A DNA stretch of 64,000 bases. It comes from Pseudomonadota bacterium. Its GTDB lineage: Bacteria; Myxococcota_A; UBA796; GCA-2862545. A model generated the notes under the pieces. It was not told the DNA's origin. It searched no databases and was given only the letters and a program-made list of their open reading frames with translations. The stretch covers positions 1 through 64,000 of the forward strand of contig JAGSGY010000025.1 of NCBI GenBank assembly GCA_023954855.1, written 5' to 3'. The translations under genes and the position numbers were made by a program. Positions within the stretch are counted from its first letter, which is position 1. Each line of letters begins with the position of its first letter. Shown here one piece after another: positions 18,032-50,279 of this stretch.

Positions 18032-18211
18032 ATGATGTACCGCTGGTTTGAGCTGCTCGGCTACATCACTCCCATCATTGGCTACTTCACGGAGCTTGGC
18101 GGAGCGATTGCCGCTCCGATTGCAGCCGTGATCTGCGTAGCCCTTCTGCGGCGCCCTCTGTTTGACCTTGCCCATGCCATCGCGACCCGCGAGATTCCTG
18201 AGGACGAGTAG
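18032..18211 (+). CDS. Small membrane protein, 59 residues, coupled to the pseudokinase gene
   Basis: The frame MMYRWFELLGYITPII to REIPEDE encodes one or two hydrophobic segments: GYITPIIGYF and a longer GGAIAAPIAAVICVALL, then RRPLF. ATG at 18032 (or 18035) has GGAGG 6-9 bases upstream, and the TAG stop overlaps the GTG start of the next gene by one base. This tight coupling, plus the hydrophobic pattern, supports a real gene. It may place or partner the soluble pseudokinase protein at the membrane; this is inference from position only. Confidence 0.65.
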   Translation: MMYRWFELLGYITPIIGYFTELGGAIAAPIAAVICVALLRRPLFDLAHAIATREIPEDE

Positions 18212-20154: not shown

Positions 20155-20183
20155 TAGGGGCGCCTTGCACCCAGGGAGCCAGA

Positions 20184-21908: not shown

Positions 21909-22037
21909 ATCGACCTCCCAGAACGGCAGTGTACTGTGACGCCGCCCGAATCATGTGGTTCCCGGGCCGAACGCACGCAATCGGTTTTCCTTACACGCAG
22001 AACGGTTATGCGTGACCACCTGGCACACGGAGACGGT

Positions 22038-23135
22038 ATGGGGGAGCAGGTGGCCGAGCGTGACGGCGTCACAGTCGTGGTGCCGACATTCAATGAGCGC
22101 GACAACATCCCGGTGCTCCTAGATCGGCTTGAGGCCGCACTTGACGCGGCTGGACGCCCGTTCGAGATGCTCGTCGTCGACGACAACTCTCCGGACGGCA
22201 CCGCGGCATTTGCCAACGAGCTTGGAGCCACTCGTCGCATCCGAGCGATTTGCAGAACCGAAGAACGCGGGCTCGCCACGGCGGTGATCCGGGGCCTTCA
22301 AGATGCCAAGTACGACCTCTGCGTCTGCATTGACGCCGACCTGTCCCACCCCCCTGAGAAGGTGCCGGAGCTGGTCGACACTGTCGAAGGGGGCGCGCGC
22401 TTCGCGATTGGTTCACGCTACGTCGATGGCGGCGAGACCGTGGACTGGGGCTTTCTGCGCTGGGTCAACTCCATTGGCGCGACCCTCATGGCTCGCCCGC
22501 TGACCAAGGTCGGCGACCCGATGAGCGGCTTCTTCTGCTGCCGTCGATCACAGGTCCCCTTCGAGACGCTTAATCCTGTTGGGTACAAGATCGCCCTCGA
22601 GATCCTGATCAAGATGGGCGTGGCCGAACCGGCAGAGGTTCCGATCACGTTTACCGATCGTCTGCATGGCGAGAGCAAGCTCACCCTGTCGGAGCAGCTC
22701 CGCTACGTGCAGCACCTCGAACGCCTGTACCGGTGGCGCTGGCCCGTGGCGACGCAGTTCATCGAGTTCTGCATCGTCGGCGGACTCGGCATGTTTGTGG
22801 ACTTCGCGGTGCTGTCGGTCTTCGTCGAGCTTCTCGGCGTGTGGTTCGGCTGGGCCCGCATCCCCGCATTCGTCGCCGCACTGACGTTCAACTTCTTCCT
22901 GAACGACCGGGTCACCTTCGCGACCGATGGGCCGCGCGAGATCGGAATGCTGAGCCGCTACGCGCGATTCGCCCTGACCTGCAGTGTCGGCGGCTTCATC
23001 AACTGGGCAGTCAGCACGGGCGCCTACGTGAGTAGCCCGTGGATGGAGCAGCACTACCTCGTGGCCGCATTCATCGGCATCATCGCCGGAACCGCGGTCA
23101 ACTTCACGGGCTCGCGAAACTTCGCCTTCAAGTAG
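22038..23135 (+). CDS. Dolichol-phosphate-mannose-synthase-like GT2 fused to GtrA domain
   Basis: 365 residues. The N-terminal half is a GT2 polyprenyl-phosphate glycosyltransferase: VVVPTFNERDNIPVLLDRL, VDDNSPDGT, the DXD motif in CIDADLSHPPEKVPE, and GSRYVDGG. The C-terminal 120 residues carry four hydrophobic segments of the GtrA flippase-like family (FIEFCIVGGLGMFVDFAV, LTFNFFLNDRVTF, IIAGTAVNFTGSRNFAF). Such fusions charge undecaprenyl phosphate with a sugar and help move it across the membrane for surface-polymer decoration. ATG 22038 is chosen; 22008 is possible. Confidence 0.88.
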   Translation: MGEQVAERDGVTVVVPTFNERDNIPVLLDRLEAALDAAGRPFEMLVVDDNSPDGTAAFANELGATRRIRAICRTEERGLATAVIRGLQDAKYDLCVCIDADLSHPPEKVPELVDTVEGGARFAIGSRYVDGGETVDWGFLRWVNSIGATLMARPLTKVGDPMSGFFCCRRSQVPFETLNPVGYKIALEILIKMGVAEPAEVPITFTDRLHGESKLTLSEQLRYVQHLERLYRWRWPVATQFIEFCIVGGLGMFVDFAVLSVFVELLGVWFGWARIPAFVAALTFNFFLNDRVTFATDGPREIGMLSRYARFALTCSVGGFINWAVSTGAYVSSPWMEQHYLVAAFIGIIAGTAVNFTGSRNFAFK

Positions 23136-23189: not shown

Positions 23190-23225
23190 AACTAGACTGA
23201 CATGTCAGTCTAGTTGAGATAGTGG
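23190..23225 (+). promoter_or_regulatory. Palindromic TetR-type operator with overlapping promoter, arm A
   Basis: A perfect 26-base palindrome (23190-23215), half-site ACTAGACTGACA followed by its reverse complement, with AC...GT outer bases. The CTGACA at 23197-23202 in its centre is a good -35, and TAGTGG at 23220-23225, 17 bases on, is the -10. The start codon of the HAD gene is at 23245. The same 24 bases recur at 30599. Binding of a repressor would block the -35 and spacer. Confidence 0.85.
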
Positions 23226-23244
23226 CCCCCAATCTGGAGGCCCT

Positions 23245-23907
23245 ATGGCAGAGCTCGGCTCGGCCGCGTTCGTTCGCGTTGAAGGTGTTCTGCTGGGTCG
23301 ACCGACCCTCGCGACCGCCGCATGGCTGGCCGCAAATGCTCAGCGCGTACGCGAACGCTTCGCCCGTCTGGGGGCCACCGCCCTCGCTCTTCCTTTTGCC
23401 CTCGGCGCCGACAAGGGTGCCGCGAATCGCCTCGGCTGGGCGGCGCTACGGGGTGTGTCCGAGGATCGGATCGCCGTGCTTGGTGAAGAGTACGCCGAGC
23501 AGTACCTTCTCGAGAACCTCCGCGAGACGGGACTCGAGCTGGTGAGCCAAGCCCGGCGTCGCCACGACCGCCTGGTGCTCGTCTCGGACAACATTGGACC
23601 CGTCGTTCAGCGAGTCGCCGACCAGATCTCAGCCGACGAGTTGCTCTGCAACCAGCTCGAGTTCAACGCGAGCGGCGCCACGGGCCGCCTTCGGGAGCCA
23701 CGAGTGAGCAGCCACCTCTCAGGACAAGGCCTGCGAAGTTACGCCGCGACCCATGGCATCGACCTCGCGCGGAGCGCCGCATACGGCTCGTCAGCCGCGG
23801 ACAGCCTGTTGCTGTCGGCGGTGGGCCTACCGTGCGCGGCCCACCCCGACCGCGCACTCCGCCGCGTCGCCCGTGACTATGACTGGCCGATCGTGGAGGC
23901 CCGATGA
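23245..23907 (+). CDS. HAD-superfamily (subfamily IB-like) protein with lost catalytic residues
   Basis: 220 residues. The overall layout is that of CicA/SerB-type HAD phosphatases, but motif I reads FVRVEGVLLG where FxDxDGTLL is expected: the nucleophile Asp is Arg11, the acid-base Asp is Glu13 and Thr is Val15. Motif II Ser is kept (LVSDNIGP). Motif III lacks a clear Lys, and motif IV is YGSSAAD, with the first Asp replaced by Ser and the second retained. It is the first gene of arm A, 29 bases behind its operator, and overlaps the reductase start by 4 bases. Probably not a phosphatase; perhaps a lipid-binding or regulatory partner. Confidence 0.7.
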   Translation: MAELGSAAFVRVEGVLLGRPTLATAAWLAANAQRVRERFARLGATALALPFALGADKGAANRLGWAALRGVSEDRIAVLGEEYAEQYLLENLRETGLELVSQARRRHDRLVLVSDNIGPVVQRVADQISADELLCNQLEFNASGATGRLREPRVSSHLSGQGLRSYAATHGIDLARSAAYGSSAADSLLLSAVGLPCAAHPDRALRRVARDYDWPIVEAR

Positions 23908-25481
23908 CCATTCGCGAGACCCTTCGCGGAAAGCACATTCTGCTGACTGGGGCCACCGGCTTTGTGGCCAAGGTCTGGCTCGCGCAGCTGCTGTACCATG
24001 TGCCCGAGATCGGCCGCATCACGCTGCTGATCCGCGACCGGAAGACGGCCACCGCCACCGAACGCATCGAGCACGAGCTCAGCTGCAACCCGGCGTTCCG
24101 GCCTCTCCGCGAGCGTCATGGACCCGACTGGGGTCGCTTCGTCGCCGAGCGTGTTCAGGTCATGAGTGCCGATCTCTGCGCACCCCGTTGCGGCCTTCGC
24201 GACGACCAGGTTGCGGCGCTGTCTGGAACGGTGGACCTCACGCTCCACTGTGCAGGCCTCACCGACTTCATGCCCGATCCCCTGGCCGCCATCGCTGCCA
24301 ACGTGACCGGTGCGACCCACATCGCGGACCTCGTCGCCAGCTTCGACAATCGCCGCTTGGTGCACATCTCGACGTGCTTCGTGGTGGGCCGACGCGACGG
24401 TGTGATCACCGAGTCACTCGAAGCCGACACCAACCCCCGCGGCGAGGCCTTCGATGCCAAGGCTGCCCTCGCCGACTTGGTCGCGGCCTGTGAGGAGCCC
24501 GGTGCGAAGTCGCGCATGCGCGCACGGATCGATATCGGCCGCGAACACGCCGAAGCTGCCGGCTTCGCCAACACCTACACCTTCACGAAGAGCCTCGCCG
24601 AGCGCTTGCTCCAGCGCAGAGCCGACATCGAGCTCGCCATCGTGCGACCCTCGGTGGTCGAGTGCGCGCGGCGATTCCCCTTCCCTGGCTGGAACGAGGG
24701 CATCAACACCGCGGGACCCGTGTCTTGGCTCATCGCCAGCTCATTCCGCCGGCTGCCCAGTGTCGACGAGCATCCCTTCGATGTGGTGCCCGTGGACCTG
24801 ATCGGGCGAGGTCTGACCCTCATCTCCGCAGCGATGCTCAACGGCCAGGCTTCGGGCGTCTACCAGCTCTCTTCGAGTGGCTTGAACCCCATGTCGTTCG
24901 GCCGATGCATCGAGCTGAATGGACTCGCTGTCCGCAAGGCCACCCGCGACGGAAGTGGCAACCCGTGGCTTCGTTACCTCGACCCCGTCGCAAGTCCTGT
25001 TGATGAAGGGGCCTTCTTCACGGTAGGGCGCGCGCGAAGTGCCGCCGACTGGCTGAAGAAGCGGGTTCGTTCTAGTCGGCCCGAAGAGCGCCTGAGCGAG
25101 GGCCTACAGGAAGCCATCAGCCCCACCCTCGACTCGCTGCGGAGCCGCGCGTCCACCAAGCTCGGCGAGGCCTCCCGTCAGCTCCGACGCATCGACGCGA
25201 TGCTCGAGCTGTTTCAGCCGTTCACCCACGACCACGACTGGGTATTCGTTGCCGACCGGGTCGCCGAACTGTCCGCGCAGCTCGCGCCGACCGAGGCCTC
25301 CAACTTCGCCTTTGACATCGGCACGCTCGACTGGCGCCACTACTGGATTGACGTCGAGTACCCAGGCCTGGCGAAGTGGTGCTTCCCGCTAATTTCCGGG
25401 GGGACCGTCCCCGAAGACACCCCCCACGAGCCGTTGGTGGTGCTGACCACCGAGTCTGCACAGCTCTCGAGGACTGCCTGA
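23904..25481 (+). CDS. Fatty acyl-CoA/ACP reductase (male-sterility/NAD_binding_4 family)
   Basis: 525 residues. The N-terminal Rossmann domain has LLTGATGFVAKVWLAQLL, with the extended spacing of alcohol-forming fatty acyl reductases; the active-site Tyr-Lys is YTFTKSLAERLL near residue 227, and VRPSVVECARRFPFPGWNEG follows. The C-terminal 150 residues are unlike the core. The family reduces acyl-CoA or acyl-ACP to aldehyde or alcohol with NADPH. It could be a paralogue of the next gene, but is longer. Starts ATG 23904, overlapping the HAD gene by 4 bases. Confidence 0.8.
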   Translation: MTIRETLRGKHILLTGATGFVAKVWLAQLLYHVPEIGRITLLIRDRKTATATERIEHELSCNPAFRPLRERHGPDWGRFVAERVQVMSADLCAPRCGLRDDQVAALSGTVDLTLHCAGLTDFMPDPLAAIAANVTGATHIADLVASFDNRRLVHISTCFVVGRRDGVITESLEADTNPRGEAFDAKAALADLVAACEEPGAKSRMRARIDIGREHAEAAGFANTYTFTKSLAERLLQRRADIELAIVRPSVVECARRFPFPGWNEGINTAGPVSWLIASSFRRLPSVDEHPFDVVPVDLIGRGLTLISAAMLNGQASGVYQLSSSGLNPMSFGRCIELNGLAVRKATRDGSGNPWLRYLDPVASPVDEGAFFTVGRARSAADWLKKRVRSSRPEERLSEGLQEAISPTLDSLRSRASTKLGEASRQLRRIDAMLELFQPFTHDHDWVFVADRVAELSAQLAPTEASNFAFDIGTLDWRHYWIDVEYPGLAKWCFPLISGGTVPEDTPHEPLVVLTTESAQLSRTA

Positions 25482-26611
25482 TGGCCACCTTTATGACCGG
25501 CGCCACCGGGTACCTCGGTGGCTACACCCTTCTCGAGCTACTCGAGCACAGCGATGAGCGCGTATTCCTGCTGATCCGAGGACGGGACCGCACCCATCAG
25601 GTGACCAAGCTGTGGAACTGCCTGCAGCTGCACATCGACTTGCCGCGCTTTCGCGAGGTCCTCGACCGCGTCGTCTTGGTGCGCGGAGACCTTCACGCGC
25701 CCAGCCTGGGCCTCTCGGACGAAGACCAGAAGCAGGTCCTCGATGAGTGCGACTCGATCTTGCACGGTGCAGCATCCCTCAATCGGATGTCCTCACGCGT
25801 CTGCGTAAACTCCAACGTGCGCGGCACCATGGGCACCCTCGAGCTGGCCCGAGCCATGCACGAAAACAAGGGTCTTCGGCGCTACTCCTTCGTCTCCACC
25901 GCAGCGGTGATCGGCGACCGCCGCGATGAGCACCTCTTCGAGGACGATGCGCTCGACTTCGACGTAAACGCGCTCGACCCCTACGCCCGCACCAAGCGAA
26001 TCTGCGAAGAGCTGGTCCAGCGGATGCTTCCGCCAGAGACGTCCAGGGTGATCTTCCGCCCCGTCACGGTCATGGGTGACAGCAGGCATCCACGCACCAC
26101 GAGCTTCGACATGCCCTCGGCCTTCGTCTGGCTTGCACAGCTCCCGCTCGTCCCGCTCAAGCCCGACACCAAGATCGACATCGTCAACGCAGACTGGGTC
26201 GGCAAAGTCACCGCCGCGGTCCATCTAGAGGCCGAGCCCAAGCACGTGATCTACTTCCTCTCGGCCGGGGAGGCGTCGCCGACTTGCGCTGAGATCGGCC
26301 AGGCGCTCGAGGCGTGGGGACATCGTCCGATGCGCTTTGCCCCTGCCCTCGAGCAGGGATTCTTTCGCGCGAGTCGGGCCGGGACGAGGCTTCCACGCAG
26401 CAATCCCCTGCAAGGCGCAAGCGTCCTGATCAAGGTGTTCTGGCCTTACATCGTAAGCAACGTCACCCACGACAACACGCGCGCCGTGGCCGTCTCGGGC
26501 CCACCGACGCCGTTTCAGGACTACTGCGCCCCCTACTTCCACTGGGTGCAGGAGAGCCGACTTCGCTACCCCTACGTGCCGCTTCCCGACGACTTCGAGG
26601 TGCAGTCATGA
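25481..26611 (+). CDS. Extended-SDR reductase, thioester-reductase-like
   Basis: 376 residues. FMTGATGYLGGYTLLELL is the nucleotide-binding turn; LIRGRDRTHQVTKLW and VRGDLHAPSLGLSDEDQ follow the pattern of the reductase domains that end nonribosomal or polyketide chains. The catalytic pair is YARTKRICEELV near residue 168. Together with the preceding reductase it suggests two reductive steps, or one on aldehyde and one on a keto or lactone group. Start ATG 25481 shares bases with the previous stop (TGATG). The frame extends upstream to 25376, but that would run deep into the previous gene. Confidence 0.75.
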   Translation: MATFMTGATGYLGGYTLLELLEHSDERVFLLIRGRDRTHQVTKLWNCLQLHIDLPRFREVLDRVVLVRGDLHAPSLGLSDEDQKQVLDECDSILHGAASLNRMSSRVCVNSNVRGTMGTLELARAMHENKGLRRYSFVSTAAVIGDRRDEHLFEDDALDFDVNALDPYARTKRICEELVQRMLPPETSRVIFRPVTVMGDSRHPRTTSFDMPSAFVWLAQLPLVPLKPDTKIDIVNADWVGKVTAAVHLEAEPKHVIYFLSAGEASPTCAEIGQALEAWGHRPMRFAPALEQGFFRASRAGTRLPRSNPLQGASVLIKVFWPYIVSNVTHDNTRAVAVSGPPTPFQDYCAPYFHWVQESRLRYPYVPLPDDFEVQS

Positions 26612-28113
26612 GTGGCTGGGCCGAGTTTGGCACCTGGGCAAAGAAGCGCGTTCGCAAAGGCCTCGACGCAGCCGACGCCGACCGCGCGCTCATCGCATCG
26701 ATGGCCGCTGGCATCGAGTTCGCCGCCACCCGGTCTGCGCTAGACCGCGGTGCCGTTTGGAAGCCGGGAACCCCTCTCAAGCTGCTGCTCGCCGGATACA
26801 GCGGCACGCGAAACACGGGTGCAGATGTCCGCGTCGAGGAGATGATCAAGCAGCTTCGCCACCTCTTCGGCGACGACTGGCTTGAGCTCTCCCTGCTCAC
26901 CGTCGACCCCGAACGCTCCCGCGGCTACTTCCGCACCGTCCGCCAGCTCACGCTGCCGAAGATCTTCCCGAAGTTCCTGGTGCAGACGGTGCACGAGCAC
27001 CACGGCGTGCTGGCTTGCGAAGGGTCGATGTTCAAGTCGAAGTTCGCCAACGCGCTGTCGACGATGATGACTGGAGCCCTTGGCCTCGCCAACGCCGAGG
27101 GGAAGATCTCGGTGGCCTATGGGGGCGAGGCGGGCAGCATGGACACGCCCCTCGCCAAGCTCGTCCGCGACTACGCCTCCGAGTCGCTCATGCTCGTCCG
27201 GAACCAAAACAGCCGTGAGGTCCTCGGCGCCCTCGGCATCGACGCGTTTATCGGCACCGACACGGCCTGGACTTACGACCCCGGCCCCGTTCCACTCGCG
27301 GACGAACTACTCGCCGACGCCGGCTACACACCCGGTCAGAAGCTGGTGATCTGCTGCCCGATCAACGCATTCTGGTGGCCGGTAAAGCCCGATGTCGCCA
27401 AGGGCGTGTCCCGCTGGCTCACGGGCGCGCACCGCGACACCCACTACGCCTCGGTCTACTTTCACAAGGGCGGCAGCGAGGTCGACGCGAAGCAGGCCGC
27501 CTACATCGAGAACTTCGCGCGCGCGATCAAGCGCTATGCCCAGCAGAACGACGCCTTCGTCGCCATCGTGGGTATGGAGGCGGTCGATCGGATCGCCGGT
27601 GAGGCGCTAGCCGAGCTCCTCGGAGGCGCACCGGTCTGGGTCTCGGACGACCACGTGCACACCACACTCGTGGGACTGCTTCGCCGAGCCGACCGAGTGG
27701 TCACGAGCCGCTACCACGCCGCCGTCACCTGCATGCCCGCGAACACACCGTCCATCGGCATCACCATGGACGAGCGCATTCCAAACCTGATGGCCGACCG
27801 AGGCCACCCCGAGCTCGCCCTGCGCGTCGACGACCCGACGCTCGACGAGGCGCTGTTCGACGCGCTGAACTGGGTCGATGCACACGAAGAGTCGGTCCGA
27901 GACGGCATCCTCGATAGTGTCGTACGCAACCTCGAGCGCATGGGCCAGATGGGGCAGCAGCTCGTCGACCGGGTGCGCGCCCACCATCCGGAGTTTCCGT
28001 TCCGAGCGGGTCTAGGCACGGGTACAAATGCTTGGGACCACCTTCCGCCGCTCCACCCGGCGTTAGCCGATGCCGTCGCACGGCACCGTGAGCGGAACGA
28101 GGACGCCGCATGA
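26608..28113 (+). CDS. Polysaccharide pyruvyl transferase family protein
   Basis: 501 residues. The family-typical GYSGTRNTGADVRVEEMIKQLRHLF turn occurs at about residue 64, with DTAWTYDPG, VTSRYHAAV and TPSIGITMDERIP in the C-terminal lobe, as in enzymes that transfer pyruvate from PEP to sugar hydroxyls, or related nucleotide-binding folds. Here it sits in a lipid operon rather than in a polysaccharide cluster, so the acceptor may be a lipid head-group sugar or polyol. ATG at 26608 overlaps the previous stop by 4 bases (ATGA). Confidence 0.75.
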   Translation: MSGWAEFGTWAKKRVRKGLDAADADRALIASMAAGIEFAATRSALDRGAVWKPGTPLKLLLAGYSGTRNTGADVRVEEMIKQLRHLFGDDWLELSLLTVDPERSRGYFRTVRQLTLPKIFPKFLVQTVHEHHGVLACEGSMFKSKFANALSTMMTGALGLANAEGKISVAYGGEAGSMDTPLAKLVRDYASESLMLVRNQNSREVLGALGIDAFIGTDTAWTYDPGPVPLADELLADAGYTPGQKLVICCPINAFWWPVKPDVAKGVSRWLTGAHRDTHYASVYFHKGGSEVDAKQAAYIENFARAIKRYAQQNDAFVAIVGMEAVDRIAGEALAELLGGAPVWVSDDHVHTTLVGLLRRADRVVTSRYHAAVTCMPANTPSIGITMDERIPNLMADRGHPELALRVDDPTLDEALFDALNWVDAHEESVRDGILDSVVRNLERMGQMGQQLVDRVRAHHPEFPFRAGLGTGTNAWDHLPPLHPALADAVARHRERNEDAA

Positions 28114-29531
28114 GCCTCGCTTGGCTCGCTCTGGCCGCGTTCGCGGAGCCCCACGTGGCGGTACCCGACTGTGTACTGACCGAAGCGGGTTGCGAGACAC
28201 GCACGGCCTTGAGCCATGTACGCGTGTGGGATGCGACCGAGGGCCTACGCGAGGTCGAAGCCGTCGTCTTGGACGGCGAGACGATTGTGTCGGTGGGCGA
28301 CCTGCCTGCCGACCTCGGCGCCGAGTACATTCAAGACATGGCGGGTGCCACGGTCATCCCGGGCCTCATGGACCTGCACGTCCACCTGTCGCTGATTCCG
28401 TCGGGTGCCTTTCGGGACGACGACCGCGAGGCGTTCGGCAAGCATCACCTCGCCGCCTACGTGGCCTGCGGTGTCACCACCGTCCTCGACACCGGCATCC
28501 CTATCGATGAGGCGCACCGCTTTCGGCGCCTGGAGGGCTCGGGTCCAAGCCCGGACCTGCACTTTCTCGGACCGCTCGTCTCCCCGCCGGACGGCTACGT
28601 CAGCGTGGTGCTACCCGAGTTTCCGGCCGCGGCCACCGCAGAGGATGTCGCAGAGCAGTTCGCGGCCTTCGACGCCATCAAGCCCTTCGGAGTAAAGGCC
28701 ACCGTCGAGGAAGGCATGCTTCTTCCCGTGTGGCCGCTCTACTCCGAAGAGGTCGCAACAGCGGTCTTCGCCGAGGCCGAGGCCAGGGATATCGGCGTCT
28801 ACGCCCACGCCATGTCCCGCAAGGAGTACCAGCACGCCTTGGACCTTGGCGTGGCCGGCTTTGTGCACCCCACCCAGAAGCCCACTGACAAGCTCATTCG
28901 GCAGCTCGTACAGCAAGAGCTCTGGGTGATCAGCACCCTCGCGGTGTTCGACGCACTGCTCGTCGAGTTCGAGCCCGAGCGCCTCGAGCGTCCATTGGTG
29001 CAGGCCGTGGTGCCCCAGGTCGAGCTCGAGGCCGCAGCAGACCCGATCATCTGGGAGAAGTACAAGGACGGCGTGGTGGCCGCGATGCTCCCTGGTCGTG
29101 AGGGCATGGTCGCAAAGCTCGTCCGAAACATGCTCGACAAGCCCGCTATGGTCCACGGACGCCTGAACAAGATGCAGCGCAGCATCGGAAAGCAGTTCGA
29201 GGCAGGCGTGCCGATTGTCCTCGGCTCCGACTCCGGAAACTGGCCGATCTTTCCGAGCGAGTTTCACGGACCCACGACGCTCAGCGAACTGGAGCTACTC
29301 GTCGACTCCGGCCTCTCACCCACCGACGCCCTGACAGCCGCCACCTACACCCCAGCTCGCATGCTGGGAATCGAGAACGAGGTTGGGACCATCGCGCCGG
29401 GAATGCGTGCAGACCTCGTCGTGCTTCGGGACGACGTCACCGAGGACATCTCGGCCGTTTGGGAGCCCATCTGGGTCGTGCGACGCGGCGAGGGCGACAC
29501 GCCAGAAGGCTGGATGGGGAGGGCCCGATGA
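28110..29531 (+). CDS. Metal-dependent amidohydrolase, imidazolonepropionase-like
   Basis: 473 residues. GLMDLHVHLS gives the HxH metal pair, FGVKATVEEG the probable bridging Lys, YAHAMSRKEY and GFVHPTQ the later His ligands, and LGSDSGNWP the catalytic Asp. A composite beta-sandwich domain surrounds the barrel (YIQDMAGATVIPG, GTIAPGMRADLVVL). An N-terminal MSLAWLALAAFAEPH segment could be a short signal peptide, with Cys at VPDC, but it is weak. The hydrolysed bond is unknown: amide, lactone or cyclic urea are typical. Overlaps neighbours by 4 bases at both ends. Confidence 0.78.
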   Translation: MSLAWLALAAFAEPHVAVPDCVLTEAGCETRTALSHVRVWDATEGLREVEAVVLDGETIVSVGDLPADLGAEYIQDMAGATVIPGLMDLHVHLSLIPSGAFRDDDREAFGKHHLAAYVACGVTTVLDTGIPIDEAHRFRRLEGSGPSPDLHFLGPLVSPPDGYVSVVLPEFPAAATAEDVAEQFAAFDAIKPFGVKATVEEGMLLPVWPLYSEEVATAVFAEAEARDIGVYAHAMSRKEYQHALDLGVAGFVHPTQKPTDKLIRQLVQQELWVISTLAVFDALLVEFEPERLERPLVQAVVPQVELEAAADPIIWEKYKDGVVAAMLPGREGMVAKLVRNMLDKPAMVHGRLNKMQRSIGKQFEAGVPIVLGSDSGNWPIFPSEFHGPTTLSELELLVDSGLSPTDALTAATYTPARMLGIENEVGTIAPGMRADLVVLRDDVTEDISAVWEPIWVVRRGEGDTPEGWMGRAR

Positions 29532-30598
29532 AGCTCGCAGATCTACCCACGCCGTGTGCCGTCATGGACCTCGATGTGGTCGAGCGGAACATCGATCGCA
29601 TGTCGACCCGAGCCGAAGAGCTCGGTGTACGGCTGCGTCCTCACGTGAAGACCCACAAGATTCCCTTCATCGGGCGCATGCAGACGCCTGGCTCGTTCAA
29701 GGGCATCACGGTCTCGACCCTCGCCGAGGCAAGGACCTTCGCCGAGGCTGGATTCACCGACATCACCTGGGCCCTTCCCCTTCCGTTGCATCGCCTACGC
29801 GAAGTCGTCGATCTCGGCGCGCACATCGATCTGGGTGTGTTGGTCGACAACGCGGACACGGCAGCCCGCCTCGCCGAGAGTGGCGAGCGCTTGCGGGTGT
29901 GGATGAAGCTCGACTGCGGCAACCACCGCGCCGGAGTCGACCCGACCGACCCCGCGAGCATCGACCTGGCACGCGTGCTCTACGACGCCAAGAACCTCGA
30001 CTTCCAGGGCACCATTGCCCACGCGGGCCACAGCTACTCCACACGCGGGGACCCGGAGCGCCTACAGCGCATCGCCGAAGAAGAGCGCGACCTCTGCGTC
30101 GACTTCGCGAACCGCTGTGAGAGCAGGGGCGTCGCGTTTCCGCACGTCAGCATTGGATCTACCCCCACCTGCGCGGTGATCGACCAACTCGAGGGCGTCA
30201 CCGAGATTCGCCCTGGCAACTACGTGTTCTTCGATCTGTTCCAGCAAGGCCTCGGGGTCTGCGGCCTAGATGACATCGCGCTCACGGTAATCAGCTCGGT
30301 CCTCGGTCAACACCAAGGTCGCATGGTCCTCGACGCTGGGGCACTCGCCCTGTCCAAGGACCCGGGCCACGAGGACGGCAGTTTCGGCCGCGTGCGCTCG
30401 GTGGAGGGTCAGGACCTACCGATTGAGCTCAAACAACTCTCGCAGGAACACGGCCTCGCCCAGGGGCATCTGCCCGGCTTGGACCGGGTGCGCATCCTGC
30501 CCAACCACTCTTGCCTTGTGGCCGCTATGCACCCGCGAATCTACGGAGTTCGCGGGGATGAAGTGGTCGGATCATGGATTCCAGCTCGTGGCTGGTGA
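29528..30598 (+). CDS. PLP enzyme of the D-threonine aldolase / D-serine dehydratase (DSD1) family
   Basis: 356 residues. LADLPTPCAVMDLDVVERNI opens the alanine-racemase-type barrel; RPHVKTHKIP contains the PLP lysine; the metal-site His-Cys pair is in ILPNHSCLVAAM near residue 325, as in the zinc- or metal-dependent DSD1/D-TA group. Reactions in the family are D-threonine aldol cleavage and D-serine or 3-hydroxyaspartate elimination. In this operon it might make or break a beta-hydroxy-amino-acid head group. Starts ATG 29528; its stop lies directly before the second operator. Confidence 0.82.
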   Translation: MKLADLPTPCAVMDLDVVERNIDRMSTRAEELGVRLRPHVKTHKIPFIGRMQTPGSFKGITVSTLAEARTFAEAGFTDITWALPLPLHRLREVVDLGAHIDLGVLVDNADTAARLAESGERLRVWMKLDCGNHRAGVDPTDPASIDLARVLYDAKNLDFQGTIAHAGHSYSTRGDPERLQRIAEEERDLCVDFANRCESRGVAFPHVSIGSTPTCAVIDQLEGVTEIRPGNYVFFDLFQQGLGVCGLDDIALTVISSVLGQHQGRMVLDAGALALSKDPGHEDGSFGRVRSVEGQDLPIELKQLSQEHGLAQGHLPGLDRVRILPNHSCLVAAMHPRIYGVRGDEVVGSWIPARGW

Positions 30599-30633
30599 AC
30601 TAGACTGACATGTCAGTCTAGTCGGGTTAGTTC
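30599..30633 (+). promoter_or_regulatory. Palindromic TetR-type operator with overlapping promoter, arm B
   Basis: A perfect 24-base palindrome (30599-30622), identical to the one at 23191-23214. CTGACA at 30605-30610 is the -35 and TAGTTC at 30628-30633 is the -10, 17 bases apart as in arm A. It begins one base after the stop of the PLP gene and precedes the hydratase start at 30650 by 27 bases. Confidence 0.85.
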
Positions 30634-30649
30634 GCCCGACGGAGGTACC

Positions 30650-31540
30650 TTGGAGCTCGCAGGCGAAGCGCTGTCCTGGCGCCATCACGGCCCCGCTCTC
30701 GAAGTCTCACTGCACCGCGGTCCGACGAACGAGATTGGAACCGCCATGCTGCGCGAGCTCGAGGCACTGGTCCGCTACGTCGACTCCGGGGCGGGTGGCG
30801 CACGGGCCTTGATCCTGCACTCGACCTTGGCGAGCGGCTTCTGCGCGGGTGCTGACCTTCGCGAGCTCCACGAGGGCATCGCCGAGCGGTCGGAGCGCCG
30901 CCGCAGCCAGGTCGGTCGCATCAGTCGTCGGCTCCCCTCACCCTTGCGCGCACTGACCGAGCGGGGCGCGAAGCGTGTCGGGAAGGCCTTGGTCAAGCGC
31001 GAGATCGGGCAGTTCATCGATCGTGTGCACTCGACCTTCAACGCCCTCGATGAGGCACCGCTCGTCACCATCGCCGCCGTGCATGGGCCCGTGTTCGGTG
31101 GCGGCTTTGAGCTCGCTCTGACCGCCGACCTGATCATCGCCGAGAAGAGCGCGCGCTTCTGCTTTCCTGAGCTGCGACTCGGCATCATCCCGGGATTCGG
31201 AGGCATCCCCCGCCTCGAGCGCGAGCTTGGCAACGCCCTCACCCGGGATCTCCTGCTGACCGGAAGAAGCCTGGGCGCCCGACGCGCAGCTGAGCTCGGC
31301 CTGGTCGCGCAGGTCGTTCCCCGCGACGGGGGGCTGAAGTCAGCGAGACGGGTCGCCGAACAAGCGGCCCGCTTCGACGCCGACACCGTGGGCCGCGCCA
31401 AGCGTTTCCTCAAGAAGACGCCGCGCGCCAGGATTGCCGCCGAGAAGAAGCTGTTCCTCGAAATGGTCGTCGAAGACCGCGTCGCCGACGCGCTCGGCGA
31501 CTTCGTCTCCCGCACGGATGTGAGGCCGTACCTGCCATGA
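30650..31540 (+). CDS. Enoyl-CoA hydratase/isomerase family protein
   Basis: 296 residues. The crotonase fold is clear: LHSTLASGFCAGADLRELHEG with the oxyanion-hole CAGAD, then AAVHGPVFGGGFELALTADLIIAEKSARFCFPELRLGIIPGFGGIPRLER. Glu in FGGGFELALT is the usual hydratase acid position, and PELRLG provides the second. A 45-residue basic stretch (about residues 80-125, RRRSQVGRISRRLP to RGAKRVGKALVK) is an unusual insertion. Starts TTG at 30650, 4 bases after GGAGG, and is translationally coupled to the ACP gene. Confidence 0.82.
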   Translation: MELAGEALSWRHHGPALEVSLHRGPTNEIGTAMLRELEALVRYVDSGAGGARALILHSTLASGFCAGADLRELHEGIAERSERRRSQVGRISRRLPSPLRALTERGAKRVGKALVKREIGQFIDRVHSTFNALDEAPLVTIAAVHGPVFGGGFELALTADLIIAEKSARFCFPELRLGIIPGFGGIPRLERELGNALTRDLLLTGRSLGARRAAELGLVAQVVPRDGGLKSARRVAEQAARFDADTVGRAKRFLKKTPRARIAAEKKLFLEMVVEDRVADALGDFVSRTDVRPYLP

Positions 31541-31770
31541 ACGAAGTCCTGACCCGCTTGCAGACCCTCGCCGCGAAACGCTTCGGCGACAAGGCCCTGA
31601 CGCTCGACGCCAACGCCGACTTCTTCGAGGCCCTCGGCATCGACAGCCTGCAGGCCCTCGACCTGCTCACCGACCTCGAAGAGGCCTTCGACATCGAAGT
31701 TCCCGACTACGAGCTCGCGGATGTGACCACGTTCGGCGGTCTCGCCGAAGTGCTCGAGGCGCGCCTGTGA
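31537..31770 (+). CDS. Dedicated acyl carrier protein
   Basis: 77 residues, acidic, with the phosphopantetheine site GIDSLQALDLLTDLEEAFDI (Ser at about residue 37). It lacks the usual FabD-type neighbours, but overlaps the hydratase stop and the acyl-activating ligase start by 4 bases each, so the three are probably co-translated. It is likely to receive the acyl chain activated by that ligase rather than serve general fatty-acid synthesis. Phosphopantetheinylation would need a transferase encoded outside the window. Confidence 0.92.
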   Translation: MNEVLTRLQTLAAKRFGDKALTLDANADFFEALGIDSLQALDLLTDLEEAFDIEVPDYELADVTTFGGLAEVLEARL

Positions 31771-33464
31771 TCGACGTTCGCAGCTATGACGGACTCGGCG
31801 AGCTGTTGCACGATGCCCTGATCATGCACAAGTCGAACACCGCCTTCGTGGAGCTGTCTCGCAAGCGGGAAGCGTCGCGGTGGAGCTACCTCGACGCCCG
31901 CCATGCCGCGCAGAGCCTCACCGGATGGCTCGCGCAGCAAGACATTGGGCCCGGTGACCGCGTCGCCATCATCATGAGCAACCAGCCGCGGTGGCTACTC
32001 GCGGCCATCGCCGTGTTTGCCCGAGGCGCCATTCTCGTTCCGCTCGACTACAAGCTCCAGCCCTACGAGCACGACGCTCTCCTCGCGCACAGCGGGGCAA
32101 AGTTGGTGGTGGCCGAGTTCCCGTTCTGGCGCAAGATCAGCGCAGACACGCCAGCGCTCGTCTCTGAGGCCCCGAGAAAGACTGTGCTTCCAGACCACGC
32201 CGTCCGCTACGCATCGGCACTGGAGTACGAACCCTACGCGCAAGCTCCCATCCCGCGCGCAAAGGACGACGTCGCCACCATCGTCTACAGCTCGGGCACC
32301 GGTGGAGCCCCCAAGGGGTGCATGCTGACCCACGGCGCCTACACGGCCCAGCTCGGCGCACTGCTCGATCAGTACCCGATGGAGCCCGACGAGGCCTTCT
32401 TCTCGATCCTGCCCACGAACCACGCCATCGACTTCCTCAGCGGCTTCGTCGGTCCCCTCGCCTGCGGCGCACGCATCGTGCATCAGCGCGCCCTGCGGCC
32501 CGAGTTCCTTCTGTGGAGCATGAAGCGTGAGCAGATCACCCACATGGCCATCGTGCCGCTCATTCTCGAGGCCTTCGAGCGGTCGTTGCGCGAGAAGCTC
32601 GACGCGCTGCCCACCTGGAAGCGACGGGCCGTGGACGCACTCGCGTCGGTGAACTCGGCACTCACTGAGACCAAGCCTCGCAACGAGGTGTCCCGGCGCT
32701 TGCTCGCTCCGATTCACGCAGGTTTCGGGGGGCGGCTGAAGATGCTGTTCTGCGGCGGCGCATTCGTAGACCGCGACCGGGCCGAGTTCTTCTACCGGCT
32801 GGGACTCCCCGTGGTCATTGGCTACGGCCTCACCGAAGCCTGCACCGTGGTCACGCTCCAGGACCTGGCCCCCTTCCGCGCCGACGGCGTCGGCCGAACC
32901 GTCGCAGGGACAACCGTGCGCATCGTCGACGCAGGCGAAGACGGCATCGGCGAAGTGCAGGTCACAGGGCCCACCTTGATGGCTGGCTACCTCGATGATC
33001 CCGAGCAGACGGCCGCGGCCTTCGATGGCGAGTGGCTCCGCACCGGCGACCTCGGCTGGCTCGATGCCTCTGGACACCTGCACTTGGTGGGTCGACGCAA
33101 GAACATGATTGTCACCGGAGGCGGTAAGAACGTCTACCCCGAGGACATCGAGGCGGCCTTCGCGCTGGTTCCTTGCGACGAGATGGTCATCTTCGCGGCC
33201 AACTACCTGTGGGATGTGCGCGAGATGGTGGGCGAGCAGCTCGTCGCTGTGGTCCGCTCAGAAGACCAGGACTGGCGCTCCTCGATCGCACGCGCAAACC
33301 GCAAGCTCCCCGAACACAAGCGCATCGACGCCGTCCTCGTCTGGGGCGAAGAGTTTCCGCGCACCGCATCCATGAAGGTGAAGCGCCCGGTGCTCGCCGA
33401 GCAGATCCGCGCCGCCGTGGGTCGCGACGCCCTCGAAGCCCTCACCGCGAAGGAGGTCGCATGA
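31767..33464 (+). CDS. Acyl-activating AMP-forming ligase (acyl-CoA/acyl-ACP synthetase)
   Basis: 565 residues. ANL-superfamily motifs: P-loop VYSSGTGGAPKGCM near residue 175, GYGLTEACTV, WLRTGDLGWLD, and VGRRKNMIVTGGGKNVYPEDIE; the C-terminal SMKVKRPVL holds the adenylation Lys. There is no carrier domain of its own, but an ACP lies just upstream. The pocket-lining residues do not allow me to say chain length. It probably activates a free fatty acid for transfer to the ACP of the operon. Confidence 0.9.
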   Translation: MIDVRSYDGLGELLHDALIMHKSNTAFVELSRKREASRWSYLDARHAAQSLTGWLAQQDIGPGDRVAIIMSNQPRWLLAAIAVFARGAILVPLDYKLQPYEHDALLAHSGAKLVVAEFPFWRKISADTPALVSEAPRKTVLPDHAVRYASALEYEPYAQAPIPRAKDDVATIVYSSGTGGAPKGCMLTHGAYTAQLGALLDQYPMEPDEAFFSILPTNHAIDFLSGFVGPLACGARIVHQRALRPEFLLWSMKREQITHMAIVPLILEAFERSLREKLDALPTWKRRAVDALASVNSALTETKPRNEVSRRLLAPIHAGFGGRLKMLFCGGAFVDRDRAEFFYRLGLPVVIGYGLTEACTVVTLQDLAPFRADGVGRTVAGTTVRIVDAGEDGIGEVQVTGPTLMAGYLDDPEQTAAAFDGEWLRTGDLGWLDASGHLHLVGRRKNMIVTGGGKNVYPEDIEAAFALVPCDEMVIFAANYLWDVREMVGEQLVAVVRSEDQDWRSSIARANRKLPEHKRIDAVLVWGEEFPRTASMKVKRPVLAEQIRAAVGRDALEALTAKEVA

Positions 33465-34336
33465 ACGCGACGCTCATCCTGAACCCCGCCGCAGGTGGAG
33501 GACGCGCCGGTGCCCGTGCGGAACAGGCCGCTAAGAAGCTCACCGCGCTGGGCTTCGACATCACGCTTGCCGAGACTCAAGCCCCAGGGCACGCCACCAC
33601 GCTCGCCGAGCAGGCCACCACCGACGTCGTCATCGCCGCGGGTGGCGATGGCACGACCTTCGAGGTCATCAACGGACTCGCGAAGCAGTCCTCACCCCCG
33701 AAGCTCGGCATCCTTCCGCTCGGCACGGGCAACTCCTTCCTCCGAGACTTCGGCATCGCCGACATCGAGGATGCGTACGCCGCACTCGCCAGACAGAGCA
33801 CCCGCCCCGTTGACCTGGTGAAGGTCGAGCACGCCGGCGGCACACTGCACTACATCAACCTGCTCTCTGTCGGCTTCACCGCCGAAGCGGGAGCGGTGAC
33901 CAACGAGCGCTACAAGCCGTTCGGCGCGCTTGGCTACATCTTCGCCACGCTCCAGTGCCTGGTGACGCTGTCGGCACCGGCATTCCCGTTTCGGCTTGAC
34001 GGCGGCGAGGCCGACACGCGTCCCTGCACGCTCCTGTCGTTCTCGAATAGCCAATTCACCGGCGGAACGATGCACATGGCGCCGTCAGCCGACCCTACGG
34101 ACGGCTGGCTGGACCTCGTGCGCATTGGGCCTATGGGCAGGCGACGCTTTCTCGGCGCATTCCCGCTGATCTTCAAGGGCACCCACGTGGAGATGCCGGA
34201 GATTCAAGAACACCGCGCCCGCTCGGTGCAGTTCGACCTCACCGAGCCCGTCGCCTGCATGATCGACGGTGAGGTGCTGTCGCTGACGCTGACGCGCCTC
34301 GATGTGGTGCCTGGCGCGTTGGAGTTGATCGCATGA
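33461..34336 (+). CDS. Lipid kinase, diacylglycerol/sphingosine kinase family (DAGK catalytic)
   Basis: 291 residues. LILNPAAGGGRAG and VIAAGGDGTTFEVINGLA are the conserved DAGK nucleotide-binding segments; GILPLGTGNSFLRDFGI and the C-terminal DGEVL-type motif (CMIDGEVLSLTL) complete the fold. The family phosphorylates a lipid hydroxyl (diacylglycerol, sphingoid base or similar). It would act after a lipid backbone is built and before head-group attachment. ATG 33461 overlaps the ligase stop by 4 bases. Confidence 0.9.
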   Translation: MNATLILNPAAGGGRAGARAEQAAKKLTALGFDITLAETQAPGHATTLAEQATTDVVIAAGGDGTTFEVINGLAKQSSPPKLGILPLGTGNSFLRDFGIADIEDAYAALARQSTRPVDLVKVEHAGGTLHYINLLSVGFTAEAGAVTNERYKPFGALGYIFATLQCLVTLSAPAFPFRLDGGEADTRPCTLLSFSNSQFTGGTMHMAPSADPTDGWLDLVRIGPMGRRRFLGAFPLIFKGTHVEMPEIQEHRARSVQFDLTEPVACMIDGEVLSLTLTRLDVVPGALELIA

Positions 34337-35085
34337 AGCAACCTTCCACCGGTGTCGTCGATCACGTCGTCTCGGCAGGTCTCTGGGGAGTGGGCGTTGC
34401 CTGGATGACCCCGATGATGTTCGCGATGACCACGCTCGGGGCAGCCTTTGGTGCCGATCGCATCGACCGGTTCTCGCGGGTCTACACGCGTGGACAAATC
34501 GCCCTGACCGGCGCGAAGTACACGACCGTCGTCCACCCCGACATCGACCCGGCCAAGCCCTACTTGTTCGCGCAGAACCACGTGAACATGTTCGATCACG
34601 TCGTGCTGTACGACGCGACCCCACACTTCAAGCAAGGCGTGGAGCTCGAGGAGCACTTCAAGATTCCGGTCTATGGCTGGTTCATGCGGTCCCGGGGCAC
34701 CATTCCTGTTCGGCGGGGTCGAGACGGGCAGACGCCCGAGATCCTCGCCAACTTCCGCGCCGAGATGGCCAAAGGGCACAGCATCCTGGCGTTCCCCGAG
34801 GGCACCCGCACACTCGATGGACGCGTGGGCTCGTTCCGACGCGGAATCTTCTACATCGCGCACGAGCTCGGGCTTCCCATCGTGCCCGTCGCCGTGACCG
34901 GCATGTACGAGAAGAAGCGGAAAGGAAGCGTGGTGCTGCGCCCAGGAGGCGAAGTGACCGTGCACTGCGAGAAGCCCATCGAGACCGCCGGCCTCTCCGC
35001 TGACGACGTGCCCGCACTCGCCGAGCAAGTACAGAAAGTCGTCGCCGATCGCGTCGATGCCTACTGGGAGGCCAAGTATGGCTGA
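34333..35085 (+). CDS. 1-acylglycerol-3-phosphate-type O-acyltransferase (PlsC family)
   Basis: 250 residues. The catalytic NHxxxxD motif appears as NHVNMFDHVVL near residue 82, with FPEGTRTLDGRVGSFRRG carrying the acyl-binding and phosphate motif and VPVAVTGMY following. There is a hydrophobic N-terminal segment (MTPMMFAMTTLGAAFG), so it is membrane-bound. It would esterify the second acyl chain using acyl-ACP or acyl-CoA. It overlaps the lipid-kinase stop by 4 bases and the TetR start by 8. Confidence 0.9.
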   Translation: MKQPSTGVVDHVVSAGLWGVGVAWMTPMMFAMTTLGAAFGADRIDRFSRVYTRGQIALTGAKYTTVVHPDIDPAKPYLFAQNHVNMFDHVVLYDATPHFKQGVELEEHFKIPVYGWFMRSRGTIPVRRGRDGQTPEILANFRAEMAKGHSILAFPEGTRTLDGRVGSFRRGIFYIAHELGLPIVPVAVTGMYEKKRKGSVVLRPGGEVTVHCEKPIETAGLSADDVPALAEQVQKVVADRVDAYWEAKYG

Positions 35086-35692
35086 CACCGCACGAGCCGA
35101 ACGCGCGCGCGAAGCCCGAGAACTGCGCCGTGCCCAAATCCTCGCCGTGGCCCTGCAAGTCTTCTCGGAGAAGGGCTACCACGCGGCGTCAATCAGCGAT
35201 GTCGTCAAGGCGGCTGGGGTCGCTCGCGGCACCTTCTACCAGTACTTCGACAGCAAGCACGCCATCTTCCACGAGCTTCTCGACCAGCTCATCGCCGGAC
35301 TGAGCGCGAGCATCGTCGGCGTCGACTTGAGCGAGGGCGCCGCCCCCGTGCGGCAACAGCTCATCGGGACGGTCACGCGCATCGTGGACGCCGTCGACAC
35401 CAATCGCCCCTTCGTGCGAATCGTCCTGCGCGTGGCCGTCGGCCTCGATGCCGAGGTGGACGCCAAGCTGGAAGAGTTCTACGGCAACATCCGCTCGGTG
35501 ATCGCCCTGTCGCTGCGCCGTGGCCAGATGATGGGCCTGATTCGCGAGTGCGACCCCGAGCTCGCCGCAGTCTGCGTTCTCGGAAGCTTTCGCGCCGTCA
35601 TCGAGCAGTACCTGGGCTCGGACGATGAGGTCGACACGCACCGTCTCGCCCTCGGCATTCTCGAGTTCTCCCTCAAGGGCTTGCTGGCCTGA
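35078..35692 (+). CDS. TetR family regulator of the lipid cluster (first of two)
   Basis: 204 residues. HTH: ALQVFSEKGYHAASISDVVKAAGVARGTFYQYFDSKHAIFHELL. The C-terminal ligand domain is helical with hydrophobic, acyl-pocket-like character, but no specific ligand can be read. ATG 35078 overlaps the acyltransferase stop by 8 bases, so its expression rises and falls with arm B, as expected for autoregulation. It is one of two candidates for binding the duplicate 24-bp palindromes. Confidence 0.88.
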   Translation: MADTARAERAREARELRRAQILAVALQVFSEKGYHAASISDVVKAAGVARGTFYQYFDSKHAIFHELLDQLIAGLSASIVGVDLSEGAAPVRQQLIGTVTRIVDAVDTNRPFVRIVLRVAVGLDAEVDAKLEEFYGNIRSVIALSLRRGQMMGLIRECDPELAAVCVLGSFRAVIEQYLGSDDEVDTHRLALGILEFSLKGLLA

Positions 35693-35729
35693 GGCCCGCT
35701 CTCGCACTACCCGCCATCCAGGAGGCATT

Positions 35730-36299
35730 GTGCCCAGAGGACGAACTCCAAAGGCAAGTCGAGAGCGCTGGGCAGGTGCCGCTCTGCGCGCCCTCGCCGA
35801 AGGCGGCGTGAGCGCAGTGAGCGTGGAGCCGCTGGCTCGCAAGCTCGGCGTGACCAAGGGCAGCTTCTACTGGCACTTCACCAACCGTGAGGAGCTCGTC
35901 GAGGCCGGCCTGGCGCTGTGGGAGCAACACGGCACCGACCGCGTCCTCGCAGAGGCCCAGCTCATCGCTGACCCTCTAGACCGCGTGAAGTCTCTCTTCG
36001 AGACCGCCTTTGCCGTTCGCGGCGCGGGAAGCCTTATCGTCCATCTGGCGGCGGATGCCAAGCACCCCCTCGTCGCTCCGATCCTCGAGCGCATCACCGT
36101 GCGCCGCGTGAAGTTCATTGCCGAACAGTTCGAGTCTCTCGGACTGAGCCCGGACGACGCTCATCGACGCGCCGTGCTGTGCTACTCGCTGTACATCGGG
36201 ACGTTCACACTGCATGCCTCGGCCAGCGCCGCCGTTCCGAGCGATGCCGAACGGGCTCGATACATCGAACACCTCGTGCAAACGCTCGTGCCCGGCTGA
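35730..36299 (+). CDS. TetR family regulator of the lipid cluster (second of two)
   Basis: 189 residues. HTH: ALRALAEGGVSAVSVEPLARKLGVTKGSFYWHFTNREELVEAGL. It has no resemblance to the first TetR beyond the fold (KLGVTKGSFYWHF versus AAGVARGTFYQYF). GTG 35730 has GGAGG 4 bases upstream; the 37-base gap to the first TetR has no promoter-like palindrome. Two different TetR proteins on one pathway suggests two signals, or one regulator of the cluster plus one of a remote target. Confidence 0.85.
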   Translation: MPRGRTPKASRERWAGAALRALAEGGVSAVSVEPLARKLGVTKGSFYWHFTNREELVEAGLALWEQHGTDRVLAEAQLIADPLDRVKSLFETAFAVRGAGSLIVHLAADAKHPLVAPILERITVRRVKFIAEQFESLGLSPDDAHRRAVLCYSLYIGTFTLHASASAAVPSDAERARYIEHLVQTLVPG

Positions 36300-36342: not shown

Positions 36343-37581
36343 ATGCAGCCTAGCGACGTGATCTACGACTGGAACACCCAGGGCCACGCCATCTCCCCGC
36401 CGATGCGGCGCGCGGAAGTCCACGATGAGACCCTGCGCGACGGCATTCAGTCGCCCTCGGTCTACGATCCGAACATCGACGAGAAGATGCGCATCTTGCG
36501 CTTGCTCGACAAGGTCGGCGTCGACTCCACCAATGTCGGGCTACCCGGCGCCGGACGTCGTGCTGTCGAGGACAGCAAGCGTCTCGTCGAGATGATCCGC
36601 GATGAAGGCCTCGGAATTCGTCCTGGCTGCGCCGCGCGTACCCATCCCAACGACATTCGTCCGATCATCGAGATCGCCGAGCAGACCGGCGTGCCCATCG
36701 AGATCATGGCCTTCCTCGGCTCCTCACCGATTCGCATGTACGCCGAGAAATGGGACGAGGACCGGCTCGAGAAGCTCACCCGCGACGCTGTGCGCATGGG
36801 CGTTGAAGCCGGTATGCCGGTCTCCTTCGTCACCGAAGACACCGTCCGCTCCAAGCCCCAGACCCTCAAGCGCCTCTTCGAAGCGGCTGTGGAAGAAGGC
36901 GCGACGCGACTGGTGTTGTGCGACACCGTCGGCCACAGCACGACCAACGGCGTGTTCAACCTCGTTCACTTCACCCACAACCTGCTGATCGGCATGGGCG
37001 TGCGTGACCAGGTCAAGCTCGATTGGCACGGGCACAACGACCGTGGACACGGCCTCACGAACGCGCTCTACGCCATCGAGGCCGGAATCGACCGCGTGCA
37101 TGGTTGTGTTCTCGGAATCGGCGAGCGAGTCGGCAACACCCCTATCGACCTGTTGCTCGTGAACCTGAAGCTCCTAGGCGCCGAGGAGCGCGAGCTCACC
37201 GACCTCACCGAGCTCGTGAACGAAGTCGCCAAGGCCTGTCGCTGGGACATCCCGGTGAACTACCCAGTGTTCGGCCGCGACGCCTTCCGCACCGGCACTG
37301 GCGTGCACGCAGCTGCGGTCATCAAGGCCGAAGCCAACGGCGACGACTGGCTCGCAGACGCGGTGTACAGCGGCGTTCCCGCCAGCTGGGTCGGGCGCTA
37401 CCAAGAGATCGAAATCGGGCACCAGTCCGGACTGTCGAACATCAAGTACTGGCTCCGCAAGCGCAACATCGCCGATGACGATGCGCGCATCGCCAACGCC
37501 ATCTTCGACTACGCGAAGACGAAGAGCGAGCTGCTCACCGACGAGGAAGTGCTCTCCATCGTCGCGAAGGCGTCGAGCTAG
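36343..37581 (+). CDS. DRE-TIM metallolyase, isopropylmalate/homocitrate-synthase-like
   Basis: 412 residues. The family opening is VHDETLRDGIQSPSVYDP (D-x-TLRDG-x-Q) and the metal His pair is in DWHGHNDRGHGLTNALYAIEAG; the GIGERVGNTPI motif is present. The C-terminal regulatory domain of LeuA is absent; only a short tail follows. Acceptor keto acid unknown, since leucine, citramalate and homocitrate synthases share these motifs. It has its own ATG 36343 with CGGGAG upstream, after the second TetR gene. Confidence 0.75.
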   Translation: MQPSDVIYDWNTQGHAISPPMRRAEVHDETLRDGIQSPSVYDPNIDEKMRILRLLDKVGVDSTNVGLPGAGRRAVEDSKRLVEMIRDEGLGIRPGCAARTHPNDIRPIIEIAEQTGVPIEIMAFLGSSPIRMYAEKWDEDRLEKLTRDAVRMGVEAGMPVSFVTEDTVRSKPQTLKRLFEAAVEEGATRLVLCDTVGHSTTNGVFNLVHFTHNLLIGMGVRDQVKLDWHGHNDRGHGLTNALYAIEAGIDRVHGCVLGIGERVGNTPIDLLLVNLKLLGAEERELTDLTELVNEVAKACRWDIPVNYPVFGRDAFRTGTGVHAAAVIKAEANGDDWLADAVYSGVPASWVGRYQEIEIGHQSGLSNIKYWLRKRNIADDDARIANAIFDYAKTKSELLTDEEVLSIVAKASS

Positions 37582-50260: not shown

Positions 50261-50279
50261 AAAGCCCCCGAGGGGCAGT

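Follow-up and report, generated by a model that had tools for sequence, protein, structure and literature searches.

A co-inherited lipid-biosynthesis operon shared by Myxococcota and Acidobacteriota carries a pyruvyl-transferase-like protein and is a candidate ether-lipid gene set

A 64,000-nucleotide stretch of a bacterial genome assembly (GCA_023954855.1, contig JAGSGY010000025.1; hereafter, the window) carries, at 23190-36299, eleven enzyme or carrier genes, two perfect palindromes and two TetR genes. Comparison across genomes identifies this cluster as one ancestral, co-inherited lipid-biosynthesis operon, whose core comprises an inactive-looking HAD protein (pseudo-HAD), a fatty acyl reductase (FAR), a short-chain dehydrogenase/reductase (SDR), a pyruvyl-transferase-like GT-B protein (PST), a crotonase, an acyl carrier protein (ACP), an AMP-forming acyl ligase (AMPL), a lipid kinase and PlsC, joined in many species by an ACSL-type second AMP ligase (AMPL2). 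We tentatively favor an ether-linked glycerolipid as its product, possibly made by a pathway related to, yet distinct from, that of elbA-E, the operon for alkyl/vinyl ether lipid biosynthesis in Myxococcus xanthus (Lorenzen et al. 2014, as described in PMC9131029). The cross-phylum operon looks undescribed, and a literature search found no paper linking pyruvyl transferases, fatty acyl reductases and lipid operons. A preliminary description of the window, made from its sequence alone, had placed the genes, their overlaps of about 4 bases, the palindromes and the two TetR genes where we find them; within the arms, the overlap is 4 bases at eight of the nine junctions and a single base between FAR and SDR.

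With the PST protein as anchor, related loci were found in 16 of 58 relatives, all belonging to the window's own family and alike in their neighborhoods. A PST profile search over one genome per species returned 119 loci, 80 of which were kept; by name, these come from Myxococcota (Sandaracinaceae, Nannocystis isolates, Polyangia), Acidobacteriota and a few others, with some names of metagenome-assembled genomes (MAGs) probably reflecting mis-binning. Gene order was scored in the 44 loci having at least 5.5 kb of upstream and at least 8.5 kb of downstream sequence. The succession HAD-FAR-SDR-PST-(AMPL2)-ECH-ACP-AMPL-DAGK-PlsC (ECH, crotonase; DAGK, lipid kinase) was collinear in 43 of them, in Myxococcota as well as Acidobacteriota, with PST present in all 44, HAD, FAR, SDR and ECH in 41 each, AMPL in 40, ACP and kinase in 37 each, PlsC in 30 and the second ligase in 27. 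Clustering of all open reading frames (ORFs) revealed no further gene family common to the whole locus set. Pairwise distances of seven proteins over 33 loci correlated at 0.67-0.93, as expected for a unit inherited together, with common descent alone also contributing to these values. Together, the collinearity across phyla, the lack of a further shared family and the correlated distances argue for one ancestral operon. The preliminary description had proposed recurrence of the gene set, its order and its operator in other genomes as a check, and all three do recur, which also bears out its idea of a dedicated, jointly regulated lipid gene set with its own ACP. Distribution is patchy, with strong PST carriers making up 35 of 285 Myxococcota genomes. 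Elsewhere in the window's own genome, no clear ortholog of the second AMP ligase was detected (best match, 35%).

At up to 3 mismatches, the palindrome occurs at only two sites in the whole 6.1 Mb genome (control hits, 0), with 0 such sites expected by chance in the window. Operator 1 is kept ahead of the HAD gene in dozens of relatives, and operator 2 recurs in the sister species (L025, L040). A palindrome-like site lies upstream of HAD in 18 of 19 loci with TetR1 versus 2 of 25 without it (Fisher p = 3e-9, relatedness ignored, so that the value overstates the independence of these related loci). Genus g11 offers a natural test of this regulon: its cluster lies in separate pieces (HAD-FAR-SDR, PST and ECH), and every piece has a site of its own. 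This co-occurrence, and the way in which the sites follow the split pieces, make TetR1 a candidate regulator, and we infer that it controls the operon in this lineage via the palindrome AGACTGAC(A/G)(T/C)GTCAGTCT. Of the two TetR regulators initially described, then, TetR1 co-occurs with the palindrome, but TetR2 falls outside the conserved set. One locus (L241, G020:C157) holds an extra ECH-ACP-AMPL copy behind its own operator besides the copy on C96, reflecting either a duplication or a mixed MAG. A weaker variant of the palindrome is found in related genomes upstream of a ~1000-aa BadF/BcrA-type CoA-enzyme activase (PF01869 + DUF2229; L238, L239, L240, L242, L243 and L247 (about 3000)), with a TetR1-like paralog at most 2 kb away in four of these six (L239, L242, L243, L247); this activase-linked site is perhaps the ancestral regulon.

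The operators and genes of the window's cluster are listed in Table 1. Among the loci compared, the amidohydrolase and pyridoxal phosphate (PLP) enzyme genes are confined to the window and its sister species. They appear to be genus-specific passengers whose insertion divided the operon in two and brought in the second operator. The two arms of the preliminary description are thus present as head-to-tail pieces, but of one ancestral operon rather than as an original arrangement. The PLP enzyme, formerly assigned to the D-threonine aldolase type, is closer to D-serine dehydratases (254 versus 98 bits). Because both inserted genes seem to be passengers outside the core, the amino-bearing head group once suggested for the product is unsupported.

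Table 1 Features of the PST cluster in the window
Feature	Position	Strand	Properties
Operator 1	23190..23215	.	Perfect 26-bp palindrome AACTAGACTGACATGTCAGTCTAGTT, 30 bp ahead of HAD start
Pseudo-HAD	23245..23907	+	HAD-IB fold; Pfam HAD; motif I R11-x-E13 in place of D-x-D; putative FAR domain partner
FAR (fatty acyl reductase)	23904..25481	+	Pfam NAD_binding_4 + Sterile; Tyr225, Lys229
SDR thioester reductase	25481..26611	+	Pfam NAD_binding_4; Ser141, Tyr170, Lys174
PST (pyruvyl-transferase-like GT-B protein)	26608..28113	+	Pfam PS_pyruv_trans; R199, R369, H371, R391
Amidohydrolase, prolidase-like	28110..29531	+	Pfam Amidohydro_1; genus-specific insertion, non-core
PLP fold-III enzyme, D-serine-dehydratase-like	29528..30598	+	Pfam Ala_racemase_N + D-ser_dehydrat; His-x-Cys motif; non-core
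Operator 2	30599..30622	.	Perfect 24-bp palindrome ACTAGACTGACATGTCAGTCTAGT, between PLP gene stop and crotonase
Crotonase (ECH)	30650..31540	+	Pfam ECH_1; E154, E174
Dedicated ACP	31537..31770	+	Pfam PP-binding; IDS phosphopantetheine site
AMP-forming acyl ligase (AMPL)	31767..33464	+	Pfam AMP-binding
YegS/DgkB-type lipid kinase	33461..34336	+	Pfam DAGK_cat + YegS_C; GGDGT
PlsC-type acyltransferase	34333..35085	+	Pfam Acyltransferase; NHx4D
TetR1	about 35078..35692	+	TetR_N; FadR/FasR/MftR-like; candidate palindrome-binding regulator
TetR2	about 35730..36299	+	TetR_N; confined to genus, outside conserved set

Catalytic residues are intact in all cluster enzymes except the HAD protein. Motif I of the latter reads R-x-E-G in every PST-cluster HAD versus D-x-D-G in 9 of 9 elb-type HADs; the D-x-D of catalytic HAD phosphatases is thus invariantly replaced, in line with the inactive appearance noted before. 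The predicted structure nonetheless retains a phosphoserine-phosphatase fold (mean pLDDT 89.6; best match Z 22.0, rmsd 2.8 over 215 residues). Since HAD and FAR are fused in one ORF in Acidobacteriota, we regard the HAD protein as a pseudoenzyme that partners the reductase. FAR itself has its Tyr225/Lys229 pair invariant in 68 loci, and the Ser/Thr/Tyr/Lys set of the SDR is invariant in 70. The crotonase retains E154, E174 and the oxyanion glycine G151 in 62 of 62 loci, as an enoyl thioester hydratase does. Likewise, the kinase GGDGT motif (51 of 51 loci) and the His and Asp of the PlsC NHx4D motif (40 of 40) are invariant.

PST belongs to PF04230 (34.6 bits; cut-off, 25.3), and profile comparison (hhalign) with Myxococcota PF04230 proteins gave 97% probability with most of its length aligned. 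Its model adopts a GT-B fold (mean pLDDT 86.2), while its sequence matched no solved structure at E up to 1. The fold matches listed for PST do not include Pvg1p, an absence that carries no weight against likeness to Pvg1p. Mutagenesis of Paenibacillus alvei CsaB assigned phosphoenolpyruvate (PEP) contacts to R148, R306, H308 and K328, with K328R remaining active, and found R207 essential (PMC10435577). Mapped through family motifs rather than the P. alvei CsaB sequence itself, R148, R306 and H308 correspond to identical PST residues (R199, R369, H371) and K328 to R391, and all four are invariant in 80 of 80 loci. We read this as PST using PEP with a changed, perhaps lipid, acceptor. Two fusions, FAR-PST in Pseudobacteriovorax (L106) and PST-second AMP ligase in L090, each in one draft genome, tie PST to the acyl/alcohol stage.

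Any route drawn from this gene set has to account for two reductases, a carrier with its ligase and hydratase, a PEP-type enzyme fused to FAR, a kinase and PlsC. Other ether-lipid pathways make the ether on dihydroxyacetone phosphate (AGPS) or by ester reduction (PlsA/Ger). Here, the backbone might instead be built on the ether, from PEP, a specific scheme that we regard as rather improbable. FAR with its pseudo-HAD partner would convert an acyl thioester into a fatty alcohol, which PST would combine with PEP to give a 2-alkoxyacrylate (enolpyruvyl ether). The AMP ligase would then load the carboxylate of this intermediate onto ACP as a thioester, hydration of C2=C3 by the crotonase would yield 2-O-alkylglyceroyl-ACP, and thioester reduction by the MxaA-like SDR would release 2-O-alkylglycerol. 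Phosphorylation by the kinase and acylation by PlsC would finally produce an ether analog of phosphatidic acid built on PEP. Speculatively, every core gene would be employed once, with the second ligase optional; its absence from several clusters would be understandable if fatty acid activation can fall to housekeeping ligases.

Several observations weigh against an ether lipid made in this way. The chemistry asked of PST is unprecedented, which is a weakness of the PEP route: characterized CsaB-type members form cyclic ketals on sugars, and neither enolpyruvyl transfer by an enzyme of this type nor enolpyruvyl transfer onto a fatty alcohol is known to us. PST scores 61 bits against the CsaB equivalog TIGR03609 (cut-off, 213) and is thus a remote family member, and its best solved fold matches are UDP-GlcNAc 2-epimerases; for both reasons a glycosyltransferase-like role is possible. 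The essential R207 of CsaB is not kept, its place being taken by an invariant hydrophobic CPIxxFxWPV stretch in a part where the alignment is loose. The substrates of PlsC and the kinase could be ordinary ones, a literature search found no lipid analysis of any cluster carrier, and the Nannocystis and Acidobacteriota clusters have neither TetR1 nor the operator.

The cluster might alternatively be an elb equivalent with scattered parts that arrives at the M. xanthus ether chemistry through an unknown ether-forming step, while PST transfers a sugar or head group to the completed lipid. HAD, FAR, AMPL, ACP and PlsC are indeed homologous to elb parts, and the sugar-nucleotide enzymes among the PST fold matches suit such a role. 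Moreover, the two systems are anti-correlated: among the 285 genomes, with 35 strong PST carriers and at least 68 ElbD carriers among the matches listed, PST and ElbD occur together in 1 versus 8.4 expected (p = 0.001, relatedness ignored), and a genome of the window's family lacking PST carries elb (G010, L183). We still consider this explanation unlikely, as the FAR-PST and PST-AMP ligase fusions speak for a step at the acyl/alcohol stage rather than on a head group, ElbC and an active HAD are missing, and another genome of the family (G013, L186) has both systems. The pattern in G013 and G010 suggests replacement between systems. Ketal formation on a diol, the known chemistry of the pyruvyltransferase family (PMC10435577), offers a different route, in which reduction of a 3-hydroxyacyl thioester, made by crotonase, ACP and FAR, yields a long-chain 1,3-diol, to be ketalized by PST or turned into a glycerol-free phospholipid by the kinase and PlsC. 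Intact hydratase residues and a FAR of the alcohol-forming type agree with it; however, the operon contains neither an acyl-CoA dehydrogenase nor another source of 2-enoyl thioesters, a ketalized diol has no hydroxyl left for the kinase and PlsC, and the two separate reductases would go unexplained, so that we judge a true pyruvate ketal quite improbable.

We give slightly less credit still to a secondary metabolite or signal lipid (a fatty alcohol, aldehyde or amide), with kinase and PlsC recycling or trapping the product. An own ACP, AMP ligase, thioester reductase and TetR do resemble specialized-metabolite loci, and the patchy distribution would suit one, but the operon has no ketosynthase, polyketide synthase or non-ribosomal peptide synthetase gene, ORF clustering found no conserved exporter, and kinase and PlsC are retained across phyla with their catalytic residues. 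That housekeeping lipid genes came together by chance, each single family being common, is refuted by the 43/44 collinearity, the occurrence in two phyla, the fusions and the shared unique operator, and we attach next to no probability to it. An ether-linked glycerolipid from a pathway related to elb remains our tentative preference.

No RNA families were detected in the cluster region. Upstream (18211-23135) lie genes for an FGE-sulfatase-domain protein, an O-methyltransferase, a TPR protein and a GT2-GtrA glycosyltransferase; conservation of this group extends to the sister species (L025) and no farther. Beside TetR2, 36343-37581 encodes a homocitrate/isopropylmalate-synthase-like HMGL protein scoring under all curated cut-offs. 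Homologs of it (28-30%) stand upstream of some Acidobacteriota clusters (L109, L113-L115, L117); since conservation of the operon does not extend to this gene, we rejected it as a member. AT skew reaches its window maximum (0.14-0.16) at 50001-54000.

To our knowledge, formation of the alkyl ether bond in aerobic bacteria is unsettled, and the ether-forming step of elb is unknown. Were PST to use PEP on a fatty alcohol, the chemistry would be new, as would this origin of a lipid backbone, and the cluster would provide a third, PEP-based way to glycerol ether lipids. Independently of the product, the invariant loss of the HAD nucleophile together with fusion to a reductase gives a clear example of a pseudoenzyme that has become a partner domain. 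Predictions of ether-lipid producers rely on a few marker genes, namely ElbD, AGPS and Ger (PMC11868695). An operon common to Myxococcota and Acidobacteriota, and occurring in genomes that mostly lack elb, is a concrete ether-lipid candidate that marker-gene surveys would miss. A survey scored the elb-type cluster as absent in Nannocystis and Sandaracinus (PMC12766979), whereas Nannocystis genomes, including those of the cultivable isolates N. exedens DSM 71 (L079) and N. pusilla DSM 53165 (L078), and Sandaracinaceae MAGs carry the PST cluster.

Among known systems, elb is the nearest. ElbD-type fused proteins of ~1550-1660 aa are common in Myxococcota, and elb loci run HAD, a Lar_N protein (ElbC), a FAR-AMP-ACP-PlsC fusion and SDR, in agreement with the published operon (PMC9131029). 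Both systems, found in the same phylum, combine HAD, FAR, AMP ligase, ACP, PlsC and an NAD-binding SDR, and the FAR, AMP ligase, PlsC and HAD parts are roughly 26-38% identical, with roughly 26-37% for the first three, so that the link to myxobacterial ether-lipid clusters drawn in the preliminary description holds where homology of the parts is concerned. However, elb has one fused ElbD (~1600 aa) where four separate genes stand here, an intact D-x-D in its HAD, and, between HAD and FAR, ElbC with its lactate-racemase N-terminal domain, whereas FAR directly overlaps the pseudo-HAD gene here; the cluster adds PST, crotonase, thioester reductase, lipid kinase and often a second ligase. ElbC-type genes were found only at elb loci, and the lactate-racemase domain led us to reject an equation of ElbC with PST. 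With three defining features of elb lacking (fused ElbD, ElbC, active HAD), the cluster is best read as a distinct relative of elb. PST differs from the ketal-pyruvyltransferases CsaB and Pvg1p (PF04230, TIGR03609) in its lipid rather than polysaccharide context. TetR1 matches the Bacillus FadR, FasR and MftR models weakly (55-60 bits, far under the cut-offs) and, compared with regulators of that type, has its own operator, local to this cluster. The closest solved relative of the SDR is MxaA, the terminal thioester reductase of myxalamid synthase, which performs a four-electron reduction of a carrier-bound thioester; the SDR of the cluster, in contrast, stands alone, with a dedicated small ACP encoded beside it in the same operon.

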